Origin: Paracoccaceae bacterium
GTDB lineage: Bacteria > Pseudomonadota > Alphaproteobacteria > Rhodobacterales > Rhodobacteraceae
NCBI GenBank assembly: GCA_024642725.1
Contig: JAHEAO010000001.1
Location: 1,343 to 65,342 of the forward strand
Reading direction: 5' to 3'
DNA length: 64,000 nucleotides
Shown: piece after piece, positions 12,579 through 21,978 of the stretch
Numbering within the stretch: position 1 is the first letter of the stretch
How the letters are laid out: every line of letters begins with the position of its first letter
Position numbers and translations under genes: made by a program
Notes under the pieces: model-generated
The model's database searches: none
What the model was told of the DNA's origin: nothing
The model's input: only the letters and a program-made list of their open reading frames with translations

Positions 12579-12977
12579 TCACCCCCACTGTTCGCCAAGC
12601 GCCCGCAATATGTCGGCGCGGCTCACCTGACCGACGAGCCTGCCATCCTGCATCACCGGGAACCGTCGAAACGTGCTGGCTACGAAAGCTTCCGCGGCAG
12701 AAACGATGTCCATGCCGGCGTCAAGCGTCTGCACGTCCTTCGACATGTAGTCGGCGACAGATCCTCCCCAGTCCCGGTAATAACTCGCATGTAATGCGGC
12801 CTTGAGACAGTCCTTCTTCGACAGAACCCCGACAAGCCCACCCGCGGCGTCGACCACGGGCGCGCCGGAAATGTGGCGCTCAAGCAAGATGTGCATCGCC
12901 TGATTTATCTCTGTCTCGGGGGCCAGAGTGATCAGATTGGTTGCCATGTAGTGCGAAATTCTGGGCCGGTCGTTCAT
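12579..12977 (-). CDS. CBS-domain pair protein in the nqr operon
   Basis: A 132-residue protein made of two CBS motifs: ITLAPETEINQAMHILLE with HISGAPVVDAAGGLVGVLS, and VQTLDAGMDIVSAAEAF with RRFPVMQDGRLVGQVSR. Tandem CBS domains bind adenine nucleotides or S-adenosyl compounds and act as energy sensors. The start was set at 12977 because its ATG overlaps the nqrM stop (ATGA), implying translational coupling. It is the last gene of the Nqr operon and has no fused effector domain. A role in sensing for the complex is inference. Confidence 0.85.
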   Translation of the reverse strand: MNDRPRISHYMATNLITLAPETEINQAMHILLERHISGAPVVDAAGGLVGVLSKKDCLKAALHASYYRDWGGSVADYMSKDVQTLDAGMDIVSAAEAFVASTFRRFPVMQDGRLVGQVSRADILRALGEQWG

Positions 12978-13135
12978 GATGGTTTCTTCGCTTTGCAGAC
13001 GCCGCAATCAGCCCCCTTGATGCAGTTCAGCCCCCCGCAGGATCCCTTGATTGGCGCGCGCCCGAAGACCACGCCAAGCGCCAGCCCCCCGATCGCCAGA
13101 AGGATCAGCAGAAATGCCAGCAAAAAAGTCCCCAT
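12974..13135 (-). CDS. nqrM: Na+-NQR maturation protein NqrM
   Basis: A 53-residue protein: one N-terminal transmembrane helix (FLLAFLLILLAIGGLALGVV) followed by a short cysteine-rich tail with Cys33, Cys38, Cys44 and Cys47 (SCGGLNCIKGADCGVC). This is the DUF539/NqrM family, required in Vibrio for inserting the iron centre between NqrD and NqrE; Cys33 is in the position reported as essential. AGGAG lies eight bases before the ATG. It lies between apbE and the CBS gene, overlapping the latter by four bases. Confidence 0.92.
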   Translation of the reverse strand: MGTFLLAFLLILLAIGGLALGVVFGRAPIKGSCGGLNCIKGADCGVCKAKKPS

Positions 13136-13146
13136 ACCGATTTCTC

Positions 13147-14115
13147 CTAGACGATGACCTGGCGCATGAAATCACCTGTCATGACTTCGGTCCCCACATT
13201 TTCCCTGACACTGACGAATAGCGCGTCGATACCAAGTCCGCGCGCCCTATCCGCGCCCTTCTCAGGTCCCATGACAGTCAGCGCCGTTGCCAGAGCATCC
13301 GCGCGCATTCCGCTTTCCGCAACGACCGAGACAGAAAACGCCTCGCCCGAGATTGGCCGACCCGTCCCGGGATCGATCAAATGAGCGATGCTGCGGCCTT
13401 GATCCGCATAGCCCTGCGCCGCTGTTCCCGAGGTCGCAAGCGCAAGACCCGCGCCAATCGCCACCACACGCTGCATTTCAAGACCGGGCGCGCCCGGACG
13501 CTCTATGCCGACGCGCCAGAGCGACCCATTCGGGCGCAGGCCGATGGCCTTCACGTCGCCGCCAAGGTCAATCAGCGCATCAGAGATCCCTTGGGCCTCA
13601 AGTCCCACCGCGATGCGGTCCAGCGCATATCCCTTCGCAATTCCGCAAAAATCGAGCGTCCGCCCCGCAGCAGTTTTCCGCAGTCGTCCCGGTTCTGTCA
13701 CGATATCCTGCCAGCGACCCGCACGGCCCTCTATCGGTCCGAAACCATAGCGCGAGACAATCGGGCCGACCGTCGGATTGAAGGCCCCGTCGGTCAGGTC
13801 CGCGATTTCCAGAGAAGCGGCGGCAACTTCAGAAATCTCATCTCCGCAACGATGCCACCGTGTATCGGCCGATCTGTTGAAGCGGCTGATTTCCGAGCTT
13901 TCGCGCCACGGCGAAAGCGTGGCATCGACCTGTTCGATGACCTGCTCTACAACATTGGCCGCGACGATCAGATCCGCCTCTGTCGGCAGAGCAAGCCGCC
14001 AGCTTCCGCCAAAAGCTCGCCCTTCAATAGAATGACCGCCTGCCCAAGCCGGAAACGCCACGGCGAGTGCCGCACCACCGGTCGCCAGGATCATATCGCG
14101 TCGTGAAAGCGTCAT
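13147..14115 (-). CDS. apbE: FAD:protein FMN transferase ApbE
   Basis: A 322-residue ApbE flavin transferase. The N-terminus LSRRDMILATGG with a hydrophobic stretch ending AWA looks like a Tat-type export signal. Family motifs are DGAFNPTVGPI, LIDLGGDVKAIG and HLIDPGTGRP. It cleaves FAD and attaches FMN to Thr/Ser in D-x-x-(S/T)-G-A-(T/S) motifs of periplasmic domains; here the obvious target is NqrC. The start is three bases after the nqrF stop, so it is part of the same transcript. Confidence 0.92.
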   Translation of the reverse strand: MTLSRRDMILATGGAALAVAFPAWAGGHSIEGRAFGGSWRLALPTEADLIVAANVVEQVIEQVDATLSPWRESSEISRFNRSADTRWHRCGDEISEVAAASLEIADLTDGAFNPTVGPIVSRYGFGPIEGRAGRWQDIVTEPGRLRKTAAGRTLDFCGIAKGYALDRIAVGLEAQGISDALIDLGGDVKAIGLRPNGSLWRVGIERPGAPGLEMQRVVAIGAGLALATSGTAAQGYADQGRSIAHLIDPGTGRPISGEAFSVSVVAESGMRADALATALTVMGPEKGADRARGLGIDALFVSVRENVGTEVMTGDFMRQVIV

Positions 14116-14118
14116 GGC

Positions 14119-15339
14119 TCAGACTCCAAAATCATCAGCGAATACATGGTCGTCTTCAACCCCGGCGTCCGCAAGCATGGCCTTGACGGCGCGGATCATC
14201 AGTGGCGGGCCGCAAAGGTAGTATTCGCAGGCTTCCGGCGCCGGATGCTGTGCCAGGTATTCCTGGAAGACGACGCTGTGGACGAAACCCGTCGCACCGG
14301 TCCAGTTGTCTTCGACCTGCGGATCAGACAGCACGACGGTCCAACGGAAATTCGGATGCGCCTTTTCCAGTGCCGCGAATTCATCTGCGTAAAACAATTC
14401 TGACAGGCTACGGGCACCGTACCAATAGCTGATGGCCCGGTCCGAAACGGTACGCGACAACTGGTCGTGGATGATCGCCCGCAGCGGCGCCATCCCCACG
14501 CCGCCACCGATCACCACCATCTCTGCGCCCGTTTCCTGAGCGCGGAAACTTCCGAACGGTCCAGACGCGATCACCCGATCACCGGGCGCCAGACCGAAAA
14601 GCCACGATGAAACGATGCCGGGCGAAACCTCCGGGCTGGACGGCGGCGGCAGGGCAAGACGGATGTTCAGCACAATGCGCCCCGCTGCCGTGTCTTCAGG
14701 GCGATTTGCAACCGAATAAGCCCGAGTCACCGGCTCGTCGGACTGCACGGAAAGACTGCGGATCGTTTTCCAGCTCGGTTCATGCGCCACCGGTACGTCG
14801 TAATCCCGGTAGCTCAGCCGGTAAGGGGGTGCTGTGACCTGAACGAAGGAACCGGCCTCGATGTCCGGACGCATTCCCGGCGGCAACTGTAAAACGACCT
14901 CACGGATAAGCGGCGCGAGTGGACGGACGCTTTCGACTTTGCATTCGAATTCTTCGGCGCCGATCAGGTCTTGAGGCACCTCGATCGCCATCGCGGTCCG
15001 CACCGTTACCTGGCAGGCAAGATGCACCCCGTCCCTCATCTCTGACTTTGTCAGGCGCGAAGCTTCGGTCGGCACGGCCGGTCCGCCGCCCGAAAGCACC
15101 TTGACCCTGCACAGACCGCAGGTGCCGGCGCCCGCGCAGGCTGATGGAACCAGAACGCCGTTGTCGTTCAACGCGCCCAGCAACTTGGCCCCCGTATGTG
15201 TCTCGATCCGGGTCGCCCCATTGATCGTCAGGGTTACCGGGCGCGCCGGCATCAGAACCGACCGCGCCGCAATGACCAAGAGTGCCAGAACCAGAACGAG
15301 CGCCGTCAGCAACAGGCTGCCAAGAAAAATTTCCGTCAT
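14119..15339 (-). CDS. nqrF: Na+-NQR subunit F, NADH dehydrogenase module
   Basis: A 406-residue subunit: an N-terminal membrane helix (about residues 5-26), then a 2Fe-2S domain with Cys68, Cys74, Cys77 and Cys109, matching the Vibrio pattern offset by two. An FAD-binding motif [11 protein letters not shown] and an NADH-binding motif [12 protein letters not shown] follow. It takes electrons from NADH and passes them FAD to 2Fe-2S to the membrane subunits. The length is the family norm. It overlaps the nqrE stop by four bases (ATGA). Confidence 0.95.
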
Positions 15340-15935
15340 GGCGCGACCCCGGCGAAGGCGGAGAAACCAAGAGAAAGCAGCCCGGTGACGATGAAGGCGC
15401 TCGCCAACCCCTGCACACCCTTGGGCATGTCGCTGTATTTCAGGCGCTCCCGTATCGCTGCGAAGGTGACGATGGCAAGCGCCCAGCCGACGCCGCTGCC
15501 AAACCCGTATGTCAGGGCTTCGCCCATTTCATACTGGCGCTCGACCATGAAAAGACTGCCGCCAAGAATCGCGCAGTTCACCGTGATCAGCGGCAGGAAG
15601 ATACCAAGCGCGCGGTAGAGTGCCGGGGCATAGCGATCCAGAACCATTTCAAGGATCTGAACCATCGCTGCAATGACACCGATGAAGGATACCAACTTGA
15701 GGAAGGTCAAATCGACATCGGGAAGGCCGATCCAACTCCAGGCGCCCTCGACCAGAAGTCCGTTGAAAATCAGGTTGTTGACCGGCACGGTTATGGTCTG
15801 AACCACGATCACGGCCAGCCCCAGCCCCGCAGCCGTCTCAACTCGTTTCGAGACCGCGAGAAAAGTGCACATGCCAAGGAAGAACGAAAGCGCAAGGTTC
15901 TCTTCAAAAACGGATTTCAGGAACAGCTCAATCAC
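15336..15935 (-). CDS. nqrE: Na+-NQR subunit E
   Basis: A 199-residue membrane protein with six predicted helices. It retains the two iron-ligand half-motifs [12 protein letters not shown] (Cys23) and VNCAILGG (Cys121), which with NqrD bind the membrane-centre iron cluster. The GTG at 15935 was chosen because family members start just before E-L-F-L-K-S-V-F; the upstream frame is not membrane-like. It overlaps the nqrD stop by eight bases. Confidence 0.93.
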
Positions 15936-16581
15936 GGTCCGGCCTCCCGGTCCTGATCCGGAACTCCGGTTCCTCGGCCTGTTCGGGCCAGATGGCCCGT
16001 GCCAGCCAGACCAGAAGGCCCAGTATGAAGAAGGCCGAAGGCGCAAGCTGCATCAGGCCCAATGGCTGGAACCAGCCGCCATCGGCGACGGTCGGCAATA
16101 TCGTTCGCCCCATGAGCGAACCCGCGCCCAGAAGCTCCCGCAGGCTTCCGACGATCACGAGGATCAGACTGTATCCCAGTCCATTGCCAAGTCCGTCGAG
16201 CATGCTGGGCAGAACCGGATTGCGCATGGCAAAGGCCTCTGCCCGGCCAAGCACAAGACAGTTCGTCACGATCAGCCCGACGAAGATCGAAAGCCGCTTG
16301 CTCATTTCAAATGCATAGGCCTGCAAGATCTCATCGATCACGATCACCAGAGACGCGATGATCGTAATCTGCACGATCAGCCGGATTGACGTTGGAACAT
16401 GGCGGCGAATGGCGCTGATGATGGCACCCGAAGCAATCAGAACACCCGTTAGTGCCACCGACATCGTGACGGCTGTCGAAAGCGAGGTTGTCACCGCCAG
16501 CGCGGAGCAAATGCCAAGGATCTGAAGCGTTACAGGATTGCCCCGGATCAGCGGGTCGGTGACATGGCGGATCAGCGACAT
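15928..16581 (-). CDS. nqrD: Na+-NQR subunit D
   Basis: A 217-residue, six-helix membrane subunit and paralogue of NqrE. The iron-ligand motifs are [11 protein letters not shown] (Cys25) and [13 protein letters not shown] (Cys108), equivalent to Vibrio Cys29 and Cys112. The start at 16581 ([10 protein letters not shown]) matches the family; upstream sequence is nqrC in another frame. The nqrC stop is at 16583, immediately before this start. The C-terminus has an extra charged tail ([10 protein letters not shown]). Confidence 0.93.
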
Positions 16582-16582
16582 C

Positions 16583-17383
16583 TCAAATCCCCTCCGCCCG
16601 AAGCCGGTCCAGAAAAGGCCCGAACCCGTGATCGCCCAGCCAGAACCGTAGCATGTTGGTGATCCCGGTGCCGGTTTTCGATGCGCCCGAGATGCCATCG
16701 ACTTCATAGGGCTCGCGCGCCTCGCCACGGACCACCGAAATTGCAATATTGCCATCCGCATCCGAGATTTTCTTGCCCGGCCAGAGCGCCTGCCATTCCG
16801 GTTCCTCGATGCGGGAGCCCAACCCCGGCGTGTCGCCCTGTTCGACGATCGTTAACGCGGCGATGGTAACAAGATCGGCCTCCAACGCCAGCATCGCGCG
16901 GATCGTCGACTGATAGCCCGCACCCTGAACCGGCAGCACGATCAGAAGCAGCTTTCCGTCCCTTTCCAGCAGGTAGACCGGTGCGTATTGCGCAATGCGT
17001 TTCAGCCCGGCGATATCGGCGTCGGGGGAAAGGATGATGCTGGTCTCAGGATCTTCCGCGGCTTTGACCAAGTCATAGGATGCAGGATCGACACCCTCTG
17101 CAAAGCTGCCGTCGCTGAGGTCGACCACGCGGGTTTCAAGCCCGTCCACGCCCGCTTCGAGCATGAGATTTCGCAGCCCCGGCAAGGTATCGAGCATCTT
17201 ATCCATCCGGGCCTGACGTTCCGCCGCAAGATGGGCCTCCTGCAGGGGTTTCAGCGTGACCGAGGTCACGGACACGACCAGCGCGGAAACCAGCGCCACC
17301 AGAAAGGCAATGCCAATCGTCTTGACGCGGTCGTCGTTCGGCCGTGCCAGAAACCGGCGCCATGGATGAAACCGGCTAGCCAC
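16583..17383 (-). CDS. nqrC: Na+-NQR subunit C (covalent FMN carrier), SGAS variant
   Basis: A 266-residue subunit with one N-terminal helix ([18 protein letters not shown]) and a periplasmic FMN-binding domain. The flavin attachment motif reads [10 protein letters not shown], so the acceptor position is Ser235; Vibrio and most NqrC proteins have Thr (SGAT). The conserved end [12 protein letters not shown] is intact. The GTG at 17383 gives the best N-terminus and overlaps the nqrB stop by eight bases. ApbE can in principle use Ser or Thr, so flavinylation is likely but unproven. Confidence 0.92.
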
Positions 17384-18203
17384 GTTTGCGCCTCCGCCAT
17401 GCGACCATCGCCATAACGACGAGATGATCAATCAGGGGGGCAAATATGCTGCCCAGAAGCGCTGCGAAGACCAGCGCATTCAAGGACGGAGCAGAGCCTG
17501 CGCCCGTATCGAAGAAGATGGCAAGCCCGCCAACCAGCAGGCCGTAGACCCAACGCCCCAAGTTTGTCGACGCGGCGGCCAGCGGGTCTGCGACGAGGAA
17601 AAGCAACGCAAAGGCAATCGCCGTCAAAAGGACCACCAAGTCCGCCTCGCCGGTCGACAGCGTGACGGAAAAAGCCAGAGCCGCGAAGGCCGAGATAAGG
17701 ACCCGCCATGAAACAAGCCCCGTCAAGATCAGGGCCATCGCCCCCGGCAAGGTGCTGGCGGCAACCAGCGGCGTGTTCGCGGCAATCCCCGAACCGGGGA
17801 AGGAGAAAATGAGGAAGGCGAGAGATACCACCGCGGCATTTGCAAAACCGAAACCTCTTCCGCCGAAGACGAGTTCCGCCAGCACGACGCCGAAACTCGC
17901 GGCCAGGGCAAGTTGCCACACGGGCACTGTGCCAGGCAGCATGACCAGAAGGATCAACGCCGTGGTTGCCGAATTCCATGTCAGCGCCCGATGGCGAATT
18001 AGGGCAAAGGCACCTTCCCAAACCAGCGTCACCGCAGCCAGCGCCGCTGCCGCCTGTGCGCCCGCGAAGCCAGTCTGGTAAAGCGTCGCCATGACCGGAG
18101 GCAGCAGCGCGGCAATCTGAACAAGCGTCACCGCGCCCGGCGTCAAAGCCAAGCGGACGAAAGGCGGCCCTTGGCGATACCCCGAAGCAGCAAGACTCCT
18201 CAT
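17376..18203 (-). CDS. nqrB: Short NqrB/RnfD-family membrane subunit without the FMN motif
   Basis: A 275-residue membrane protein in the nqrB position. Family motifs remain: FGVVLAELVFGGRGFGFANAA, VADPLAAASTNLGRWVYG and FAPLIDHLV. Standard NqrB is about 400-415 residues. The missing parts are the N-terminal region and the periplasmic segment that carries the D-G-x-S-G-A-T flavinylation motif: after FLIFSFPGSG the chain goes almost directly to SWRVLISAF. The frame is open and codon use is normal, so this is a real short form. NqrB normally carries covalent FMN, riboflavin and the Na+ path. Confidence 0.85.
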   Translation of the reverse strand: MRSLAASGYRQGPPFVRLALTPGAVTLVQIAALLPPVMATLYQTGFAGAQAAAALAAVTLVWEGAFALIRHRALTWNSATTALILLVMLPGTVPVWQLALAASFGVVLAELVFGGRGFGFANAAVVSLAFLIFSFPGSGIAANTPLVAASTLPGAMALILTGLVSWRVLISAFAALAFSVTLSTGEADLVVLLTAIAFALLFLVADPLAAASTNLGRWVYGLLVGGLAIFFDTGAGSAPSLNALVFAALLGSIFAPLIDHLVVMAMVAWRRRKRG

Positions 18204-19447
18204 GCCGAATCTTCCAGTTCGTCAAGTACCCTGCGCAGCAACGGCCCATAATCCGCGCCGCTCGTGCAAAGCGCCGACAAGAGCGCGACATCTTCTTCGA
18301 TCAAATCCCGGCAACCCAGACGCTCGGCGGCCTCGGCGTCCCCGACCGCCAGAGCCCGCAACAGGGGTACGACGGGCAGCCCGAACGGCAATCCCGCCTC
18401 GAGTCGCGACGTCGGAACAAGCGCCGACGGCCCATCTCCGCCTGTCCTGTCTCTCCGCCGCCCTTGGCTGGCGGTCGCCACTCGCGCAATCAGGCTGATC
18501 TGGCGATGCCTGTAACCCAACCAAGCCGACTCTCGGCCCGAAAAGACCGACCCTGAAATCGCTCTAGCCGCTTCCGGTTCGGCGGCGCCGGCTGCCAGAT
18601 CCGCAATGCGTCCGCCAATGACGGTTTGAACAAGGCGGGGCTTCGAACAATTCGGACCCCCAATCGAAATGATCCGCTCAGGCAGGAACTCACCAGTCTC
18701 AAGCAAATGGCCGACTGCAACGACATCCTGATAGCCGATCGTCCAGACCGGCCCGCCCGTGGCGCCAAGACCAAGCCGCCGCAGATGCGTTCCGGCGAGC
18801 CCTTCCGGATGGCGTCCGGCAACCTCGGTTGTTCGCAACCGCGCCCCCGCGATCGTTCCAAGTCCATGGCCGGAGGGAAGGCATAGATGCACCGGTCCGC
18901 CAGTCAGCAGGGTCAACGCTTGGGCGCCTTTCGCGAATAGATCCTTGCGGTCCTGCAAGGCGATCATCGGGTCCGGGGCCCACGGCTCGGTCTCGGTTGC
19001 GACAATCAAGATCGCATCGGGACTCTCGCCCGGATCGGGGACATGACCAAAAGGCCGGCTTTGAAATGCCGGCCAAAGTCCGCGTTCCAACAGCGTTGCG
19101 CGCAATGCCGCGGCCGTTGAAACGTCGACCTTTCGCCGGGGTGGCTCACGCTCGCCCTGATCCGCCGCGATCACAACAGAAGACAACATGCGACGCGGCG
19201 CGAAATCTATCGAGTCGACGATTCCCGATAACGGCGCGACCCAACAGATTTCTGGATGCGCGCGATCCCGGAACAGAACGTCACCTGCATGCACCGCATC
19301 GCCCTTGGCAACTGCAAGCACTGGGCGGACCTTCGGGAAATCGACACCCGTGATCGCGGCGGCCTTCACGTCGCACCGCTTCACCGGCCCCGCGACAAGG
19401 GGAGCGTCCAGCGGTGACCCGATGCGGTGCCAGAATGCTAAACCCAA
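18200..19447 (-). CDS. nqrA: Na+-NQR subunit A
   Basis: A 415-residue cytoplasmic subunit, slightly shorter than the Vibrio 446. The N-terminal barrel-sandwich part has G-S-P-L-D-A-P, GDAVHAGDVLF and APLSGIVDSI. Later motifs include LPSGHGLGTIAG, TIGYQDVVAVGHLLETG and IGGPNCSKPRLVQT. NqrA binds quinone at the interface with NqrB. It is the first gene of the operon and its stop overlaps the nqrB start (ATGA). About 205 bases separate it from the divergent cytochrome gene, with an FNR box between. Confidence 0.9.
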   Translation of the reverse strand: MGLAFWHRIGSPLDAPLVAGPVKRCDVKAAAITGVDFPKVRPVLAVAKGDAVHAGDVLFRDRAHPEICWVAPLSGIVDSIDFAPRRMLSSVVIAADQGEREPPRRKVDVSTAAALRATLLERGLWPAFQSRPFGHVPDPGESPDAILIVATETEPWAPDPMIALQDRKDLFAKGAQALTLLTGGPVHLCLPSGHGLGTIAGARLRTTEVAGRHPEGLAGTHLRRLGLGATGGPVWTIGYQDVVAVGHLLETGEFLPERIISIGGPNCSKPRLVQTVIGGRIADLAAGAAEPEAARAISGSVFSGRESAWLGYRHRQISLIARVATASQGRRRDRTGGDGPSALVPTSRLEAGLPFGLPVVPLLRALAVGDAEAAERLGCRDLIEEDVALLSALCTSGADYGPLLRRVLDELEDSA

Positions 19448-19596: not shown

Positions 19597-19652
19597 CCAG
19601 ATCACTCAGCACGAGCCCCGCCCGAATGTCCCTCCCTGCAACAGAGGTCCTC

Positions 19653-20744
19653 ATGAAAACCAACCGAGTTCAAACATTCGCATTTGCCCTTCTTACCGCG
19701 TTTTCCTTCAGCACCCTCCCGGTAAAGGCGCAGGATGGTCCGTCTCTGACCGAAGTGGTAGAGGCTTGGCTTGCGTCGCCTCATGCCGACAGGACATCCG
19801 AGGCCTTCCGGCACTGGGACAAGGACGGCGAGGTTCCCGAGAGCTGCGCGACCTGCCATTCCGGGCCGGGTTTCATGGACTTCATCGGGGCTGACGGTTC
19901 CGCCGCCGGGGTTGTCGATCACCCTGCCCCGATCGGTTCGCCCATCGACTGCGCAACTTGCCACAACGACACGGCCAGCAAGCTTGACTCGGTCACGTTC
20001 CCTTCCGGCGTCGTCATGTCTGAACTCGGGTCTTCAGGCATCTGCATGGTCTGCCATCAGGGGCGCGAGTCTTCGGACAGCGTGAATGCTGCAATCGCCG
20101 GCATGGAGGATGATACGGTCTCGGGCGACCTCGGGTTCCTGAACGTGCACTACCGCGCCGCTGCGGCCACGATGATGGGCGGCAGCGCACGCGGTGGCTA
20201 CCAGTATGATGGCAAGGACTACACCCAGCGCTTCAATCACCCCGCGCCACTCAACACATGCGTTGGCTGCCATGACCCGCACTCGACCGGTGCCGCCACG
20301 GCGCAGTGCGTTGCCTGCCACAAGGATATTGAATCCACCAAGGCAATCCGCACGACAACCGTGGATGTGAACGGCAACGGCGATACGACGGAAGGCATCG
20401 CCGCCGAAATCGTCTCGCTGCACGACCGGCTGGCGCAGGCAATCCAATCCTACGCGTCGGAAGTCGCGGGCACGCCGATAGCCTACGATGCCCATGCCTA
20501 TCCCTATTTCTTTGCCGATACCGATGGCGACGGTGAAGCCGGTTCAGCCGAAGCGACCTTCCCGAACCGCTATCAAAGCTGGACCCCAAGGCTGATGCGC
20601 GCCGCCTATAACTACCAGTTCGTGGCAAAGGACCCGGGGGCTTGGGTTCACAACCCGCATTATGCGCTGCAGCTTCTGTTCGACAGCATCGAAAGCCTGT
20701 CCGAGAAGGCATCTGTTGACGTGACTGGCTTGCTCCGGCCCTGA
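19653..20744 (+). CDS. Secreted five-haem cytochrome c
   Basis: A 363-residue protein with a Sec signal peptide (FAFALLTAFSFSTLPVKAQ) and five C-x-x-C-H haem sites at about residues 65, 100, 131, 203 and 219. Further histidines after the haem region may be distal ligands. Two Ca-binding-like loops, DVNGNGDTTEG and DTDGDGEAGSAE, follow, and a conserved tail (YNYQFVAKDPGAWVHNP) is typical of some multihaem cytochromes. It is a periplasmic electron carrier of unknown partner. The ATG at 19653 starts the signal peptide. The FNR box and Nqr operon are divergent neighbours. Confidence 0.85.
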   Translation: MKTNRVQTFAFALLTAFSFSTLPVKAQDGPSLTEVVEAWLASPHADRTSEAFRHWDKDGEVPESCATCHSGPGFMDFIGADGSAAGVVDHPAPIGSPIDCATCHNDTASKLDSVTFPSGVVMSELGSSGICMVCHQGRESSDSVNAAIAGMEDDTVSGDLGFLNVHYRAAAATMMGGSARGGYQYDGKDYTQRFNHPAPLNTCVGCHDPHSTGAATAQCVACHKDIESTKAIRTTTVDVNGNGDTTEGIAAEIVSLHDRLAQAIQSYASEVAGTPIAYDAHAYPYFFADTDGDGEAGSAEATFPNRYQSWTPRLMRAAYNYQFVAKDPGAWVHNPHYALQLLFDSIESLSEKASVDVTGLLRP

Positions 20745-20796: not shown

Positions 20797-21978
20797 ATGG
20801 CTTCAGCTGATCTTCTGATCGCGATCGGAATTCTCTTTCTGGCAGGGCTGGCGCTCGATGCCGTCGGGCGGCATATGCACGTGCCCCGCGTGACGCTTCT
20901 GATCCTTCTGGGCGCGTTCGTCGGCCCCCCGGTTCTGGACATGCTGCCATCCGGCGTAGACGGAACCCACGATCTCTATGCGCCCACCGCGCTGACAATG
21001 GTCGCCTTTCTTCTGGGCGGTTCGCTGCACTCGGACACGCTGCGCAAACACGGCAGGGCCATCATTGTGGTATCGCTCAGTGTGGTCTTCGCATCGGTTC
21101 TGATTGTATCGGGAGGGATGCTGCTGGCCGGACTGCCGCTGGGCTTCGCTCTCATGCTGGGGGCAATTGCGGCAGCGACAGACCCGGCGGCGACCCGGGA
21201 CGTGATCGTTCAGACAAAGTCCACCGGACAGTTTTCCACCAATGTCCTCGGGATCGTGGCAATCGACGACGCCTGGGGACTGCTGGCCTTCAGCCTCGCC
21301 ATCACGCTCGCCGGTCTGCTGACAGGTACGGCTGCCGATGGCGCGCTTATGGAAGGGCTTTGGGAGGTCGGCGGGGCGATTGGCCTTGGGCTTCTGATCG
21401 GCCTGCCCTCGGCCTATCTGACGGGCCGGATCAAGCCGGGCGAACCTACCCTGATCGAAGCGCTTGGCATCGTTTTCCTCTGTTCTGGTCTGGCGCTCTG
21501 GCTTGACTTGTCGTTCCTGCTGACCGGGATGGTCTGCGGCACCGTGATCGTCAACCTCGCGCGGCACCACGACCAGCCCTTTCACGAAATCGAACGGATC
21601 GAATGGCCGTTCATGCTGCTGTTTTTCGTGATGGCGGGTGCATCACTGGAACTCGACGCGCTGGCCGAGGTCAGCGGCATCGCGCTTGCCTACATCGCCT
21701 TACGCGCGATTTCGAGGCTGGTCGGCGGATGGGTCGGAGGGACGATTGCCCGGCTGCCCCGCCGCGAGCGCCGGTACATGGGCTTGGCGTTGATGCCGCA
21801 AGCGGGCGTCGCCATTGGCATGGCGCTGGTCGCGGCGGACAAATTTCCGGAAATCGCCCGCCCGCTTCTGGCCATCACCATCGGTGGCACCATCGCCTTT
21901 GAGGTCTTCGGCCCGTTGCTGACCCAGTTCGCCCTGTCAAAGGTCACCGGGGGACAGGCAGATGATGCGCACGCATGA
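20797..21978 (+). CDS. CPA-family cation:proton antiporter
   Basis: A 393-residue membrane protein with about 12 helices. The ion-binding motifs are ATDPAATRDV in one half and IVAIDDAWGLLAF, with the paired aspartates typical of electrogenic Na+/H+ exchangers (CPA2/NhaA-like fold). It exchanges Na+ or K+ for H+ across the inner membrane. It lies about 50 bases after the cytochrome gene on the same strand, so co-transcription is plausible. Beside an Nqr pump this suggests sodium handling, but ion specificity is not readable from sequence. Confidence 0.85.
   Translation: MASADLLIAIGILFLAGLALDAVGRHMHVPRVTLLILLGAFVGPPVLDMLPSGVDGTHDLYAPTALTMVAFLLGGSLHSDTLRKHGRAIIVVSLSVVFASVLIVSGGMLLAGLPLGFALMLGAIAAATDPAATRDVIVQTKSTGQFSTNVLGIVAIDDAWGLLAFSLAITLAGLLTGTAADGALMEGLWEVGGAIGLGLLIGLPSAYLTGRIKPGEPTLIEALGIVFLCSGLALWLDLSFLLTGMVCGTVIVNLARHHDQPFHEIERIEWPFMLLFFVMAGASLELDALAEVSGIALAYIALRAISRLVGGWVGGTIARLPRRERRYMGLALMPQAGVAIGMALVAADKFPEIARPLLAITIGGTIAFEVFGPLLTQFALSKVTGGQADDAHA

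Follow-up and report, generated by a model that had tools for sequence, protein, structure and literature searches.

The window analysed here, a 64,000-nt stretch of Paracoccaceae contig JAHEAO010000001.1, encodes all six NQR subunits (NqrA–F) together in an operon on the reverse strand. nqrA (18200..19447, 415 aa) is followed by a short nqrB (17376..18203, 275 aa), an nqrC ORF (16583..17431) with a likely GTG start at 17383, nqrD (15928..16581), nqrE (15336..15935) and nqrF (14119..15339), and then by the FMN transferase gene apbE (13147..14115) and an nqrM-like 53-aa ORF (12974..13135), assigned by sequence and position. A CBS-domain protein gene (12579..12983), also on the reverse strand, marks the end of the operon; it closes 31/34 short-NqrB operons and may have a regulatory role. 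On the forward strand, divergent to nqrA, lies a gene for a periplasmic five-haem cytochrome c (19626..20744; 372 aa, five CXXCH motifs), and after it a cation:proton antiporter-like gene (20797–21978), homologues of which lie nearby in 14/34 short loci and 0/6 full-length loci; such a neighbour would fit a sodium cycle. The window NqrB is the sole PF03116 protein in the genome (98.95 % complete), and by this profile there is no second complete nqr or rnf set; complex I is also encoded.

Segments missing from NqrB

The original prediction held that nqrB encodes only 275 residues, overlaps its neighbours normally and lacks the segment carrying covalent FMN. The ORF coordinates bear out the length and the overlaps (4 bases with nqrA, a few bases with nqrC), and the loss is equally evident: PF03116 matches the window NqrB in two stretches (profile 5–132 and 175–292), with positions 133–174 missing. 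Using Vibrio cholerae NqrB numbering, taken from a phmmer alignment, we compared 70 short NqrBs, comprising the window protein and 69 from the genome-contig collection, a set that partly overlaps the family sample of 34 relatives. T236, the threonine that carries covalent FMN, falls in a gap in 70/70, and the FMN-segment gap recurs in 34/34 relatives of the family sample. The loss extends beyond the FMN loop to the N-terminal quinone arm and the TM1–TM2 loop, both of which the original prediction overlooked: the window protein lacks residues 223–270 (including T236), 1–42 and 70–119, and the same three stretches are absent in >80 % of the 70 short NqrBs. RnfD likewise lacks 1–35 and 70–119, yet retains most of 223–270; because RnfD is also without the arm and the TM1–TM2 loop, the FMN segment is the only piece absent relative to both NqrB and RnfD. 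The AlphaFold2 model of the short NqrB has ten helices (pLDDT 91.9), and among PDB structures it most closely resembles NqrB/RnfD.

A frameshift or assembly error was ruled out, as the identical gap is conserved across independent genomes. We also rejected a degenerate SGAT retained in place: phmmer set PGAMAL on SGATAL, but multiple alignments put this stretch after the gap. An alternative flavinylation motif was sought in the 70 short NqrBs, and the one motif-like match was taken as chance.

In V. cholerae NqrB, the arm that makes up the binding site for ubiquinone and inhibitors lies within region 1–42 (PMC9325719, PMC10643135). The arm residues are gapped in 70/70 short NqrBs, and the contact residues E157, F159 and G141, near-invariant in full-length NqrB, are replaced, leaving the ubiquinone-site features of NqrB absent or not conserved in the short group. 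NqrA is shorter too, by about 26–30 residues, within the stretch that in V. cholerae wraps the NqrB N-terminal arm (PMC9325719); V. cholerae positions 328–368 correspond to 322–336 of the window protein.

The short form is conserved clade-wide. In the family sample of 296 genomes, approximately 35 returned a gap-free match through the join and approximately 40 encode a 400-residue NqrB, whose match is split in two; G099 and G125 carry both types. Scanning 84,980 species genomes yielded 174 relatives, of which we kept 80, belonging to Rhodobacterales, Hyphomicrobiales (Devosia, Pelagibacterium, Maritalea, Rhizobium, Kaistia and Microvirga), two Burkholderiales MAGs and Alloalcanivorax. Across the phylum, only eight of 397 sampled genomes had the gap-free form, and all eight are Alphaproteobacteria. 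The same cluster is present on a Shinella plasmid, where NCBI names its NqrB 'RnfABCDGE type subunit D'. In a tree built by a quick method on 262 core columns, with the deleted segment left out and some long branches, one branch each separates short NqrB, full NqrB and RnfD from the rest (SH-aLRT 99, 98 and 100, respectively); the tree is unrooted and compatible with loss or primary absence of the quinone arm alike. Two loci are irregular. Paracoccus aminophilus plasmid pAMI8 (L074:7667-14037) carries short-type nqrABC, after which come genes for a recombinase and a Tn3 transposase, with no nqrDEF nearby, and the short operon of G013 (L039) is in fragments (nqrA, nqrC, nqrF and the cytochrome), apparently as a decaying copy or through poor sequence.

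Retained cofactor sites and linked haem proteins

Judged by its conserved residues, the electron-input half of the complex (NqrF FAD and [2Fe-2S], NqrD/E [2Fe-2S], and the NqrC covalent-FMN motif with ApbE) is intact. The window NqrC keeps the flavinylation motif DGISGASKT, NqrD and NqrE each keep both cluster cysteines, and NqrF keeps its [2Fe-2S] cysteines and FAD/NADH domains. Across short operons, the G-A of the NqrC motif and its final T/S are each present in 78/78, the cluster cysteines of NqrD and NqrE in 78/78 and 76/76, and the NqrF Fe-S cysteines in 74–75 of 75. Much of the NqrB riboflavin site, though not all of it, persists in the 70 short proteins (G198 and D346 in 70/70, T162 as T/S in 63/70, N200 and N203 in about half); N200 is G in the window protein. 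D397 is invariant among short NqrBs.

The five-haem cytochrome gene lies upstream of nqrA, nearly always divergently, in 30/34 short operons of the family sample vs 0/6 full-length operons, in which apbE takes the divergent position instead. Its product has five invariant CXXCH motifs and a confident model (pLDDT 90.9). Identity with the known cytochromes NrfA or OcwA was rejected, as fold matches were weak only (OcwA: E value 0.042, TM 0.37). More broadly, a multihaem cytochrome gene lies beside nqrA or is fused to nqrC in approximately 78/94 short vs 0/26 full operons, although the two groups are separate clades, so that the Fisher p-value of this contrast overstates the independence of the loci. 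(The script returned 76/92 vs 2/28; L062 and L063 prove to encode short NqrBs, giving the corrected counts.) Some 16/94 short operons lack a multihaem cytochrome gene in their vicinity. Among those of Rhizobiaceae/Kaistia (L124, L136, L147 and L075), L124, L147 and L075 have a DUF1269-like and a stress-type gene upstream.

Because short and full operons are separate clades, replacements inside the short clade are more telling than the short-vs-full count. In a Bauldia MAG (L104:9582-10952), NqrC itself bears, as a fusion at its C terminus, a tetrahaem cytochrome c3-type domain (Cytochrom_c3_2). In two further loci (L092:3363-7178 and L116:5483-7518), the short nqr operon has as neighbours an FAD_binding_2 flavoprotein and a cytochrome with four or six haems; L141 resembles this arrangement, by sequence similarity only. 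The slot is occupied by an EB_dh haem protein with one CXXCH in L087 and by a PccH cytochrome in L097. The flavocytochrome-c-type modules of L092 and L116 are possible periplasmic reductases.

Possible destinations of the NADH electrons

The original prediction proposed that the complex works with one flavin fewer or uses another carrier, perhaps the five-haem cytochrome. A missing flavin and a role for the cytochrome fit the truncation, the otherwise intact cofactor sites and the gene linkage; because the ubiquinone site is gone too, a changed electron destination, with export at NqrC, appears a better reading than a substitute carrier within the same quinone-reducing circuit. We therefore favour, with reasonable though far from full confidence, a cytochrome-coupled NQR in which NADH electrons would be exported via NqrC to a periplasmic cytochrome without quinone reduction. 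NADH would be oxidised at NqrF, and electrons would cross the membrane via the NqrDE cluster to the NqrC FMN and pass from there to the periplasmic cytochrome, which would itself be, or would feed, a periplasmic reductase. NqrB would retain a structural or an ion-handling role, probably with riboflavin still bound, and Na+ could be exported at the NqrDE step. We infer the direction of the electrons, the independence of quinone and the Na+ coupling; the cofactor-site losses and the gene neighbourhood are read directly from the sequences. A pure export model is challenged chiefly by the largely retained riboflavin site, which would be unneeded if electrons never reached NqrB.

That site speaks for a second reading, which we consider unlikely, that the complex is still a quinone reductase: the NqrC FMN would dock directly on the NqrB riboflavin, an altered site would reduce membrane quinone and the cytochrome would form a side branch. 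The ten helices are kept along with most riboflavin residues, NqrA is retained and, for two-subunit complexes, it has been proposed that an extracytosolic FMN samples the NqrB-like flavin site directly (Huang 2024, PMC11334425). However, the quinone arm is absent, F159, E157 and G141 have given way to other residues, as they have in RnfD, a subunit without quinone-reductase activity, and the NqrA clasp for the arm is shortened; the tight linkage to periplasmic haem proteins would also be left unexplained.

More doubtful still is reverse flow, whereby NqrC would receive electrons that the cytochrome takes from a periplasmic donor, and the ion gradient would drive NAD+ reduction. The PccH in one locus (L097) could be read in this way, as PccH is linked to electron uptake from electrodes. 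In three loci an FAD_binding_2 flavoprotein accompanies a cytochrome-c3-type protein (L141 by sequence similarity only), which points the other way, this arrangement being known from periplasmic reductases, and no donor oxidase is conserved near short operons. Redox complexes of the NQR/Rnf family are nonetheless reversible, as seen for Rnf (PMC12174285). Finally, that the truncated operon is a functionless relic is suggested by single broken cases (the fragmented G013 and pAMI8, cut beside its Tn3 element) but is very improbable, as the same truncation and intact cofactor residues recur in dozens of genera, in one clade with conserved sites, and some genomes hold both operon types; the original view that the operon is not simply degraded, given its apbE and nqrM-like ORF, thus stands.

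Taken further, the export reading would define a distinct respiratory class, an NADH:periplasmic-cytochrome oxidoreductase that keeps the NQR input half, pumps Na+ at NqrDE, bypasses the quinone pool and is widespread in Alphaproteobacteria; this broader proposal we put forward only tentatively. If export is correct, alphaproteobacteria could dispose of NADH electrons without recourse to quinone, and an NQR annotation need not mean that an operon encodes a quinone reductase. Two published models conflict over the Na+ route, one placing it through NqrB (Hau 2023, PMC10643135) and one through the RnfA/E (NqrE/D) pair, with RnfD carrying electrons only (Kumar 2025, PMC11889175). A natural enzyme with the NqrDE–NqrC half and without the NqrB FMN and quinone site could help to separate them.

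Comparison with known systems

The short system shares with the Na+-NQR of V. cholerae its six subunits, gene order, ApbE, NqrM and the FAD, Fe-S and NqrC-FMN sites, and differs from it in lacking the NqrB FMN segment and the quinone arm and in having a shortened NqrA clasp and a linked multihaem cytochrome. Because neither the NqrB covalent-FMN threonine nor the ubiquinone site was found, we class it as an NQR variant and not as a quinone-reducing NQR. Our search of the open-access literature returned no six-subunit NQR of this kind; this is a weak absence, and the short-NqrB NQR is widespread and apparently previously undescribed.

Two-subunit Nqr/Rnf-like complexes (Meheust 2021, Huang 2024) also combine an NqrB/RnfD-like subunit lacking a flavinylation site with a flavinylated NqrC-like partner, and outward electron flow has been proposed for them. 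They differ in that the NqrB-like protein is fused to an NAD domain, NqrA, NqrD and NqrE are absent and they occur mainly in Actinobacteria and CPR; the PF00175 fusion of this type was not found in the window NqrB, which carries PF03116 only.

The Rnf of Methanosarcina acetivorans may be a close functional parallel, sharing a six-subunit Rnf/NQR-type core and a multihaem cytochrome, MmcA, which has seven haems and is related to the octahaem tetrathionate reductases (PMC11024163). It differs in being archaeal and ferredoxin-dependent, with RnfB/RnfC in place of NqrF/NqrA; these Rnf Fe-S subunits were not found at the window operon, which encodes the NqrA and NqrF families instead. In M. acetivorans, covalent FMN is on RnfG, RnfD has a degenerate SGTF only and, in the authors' model, RnfG passes electrons to the multihaem cytochrome (PMC4023990).
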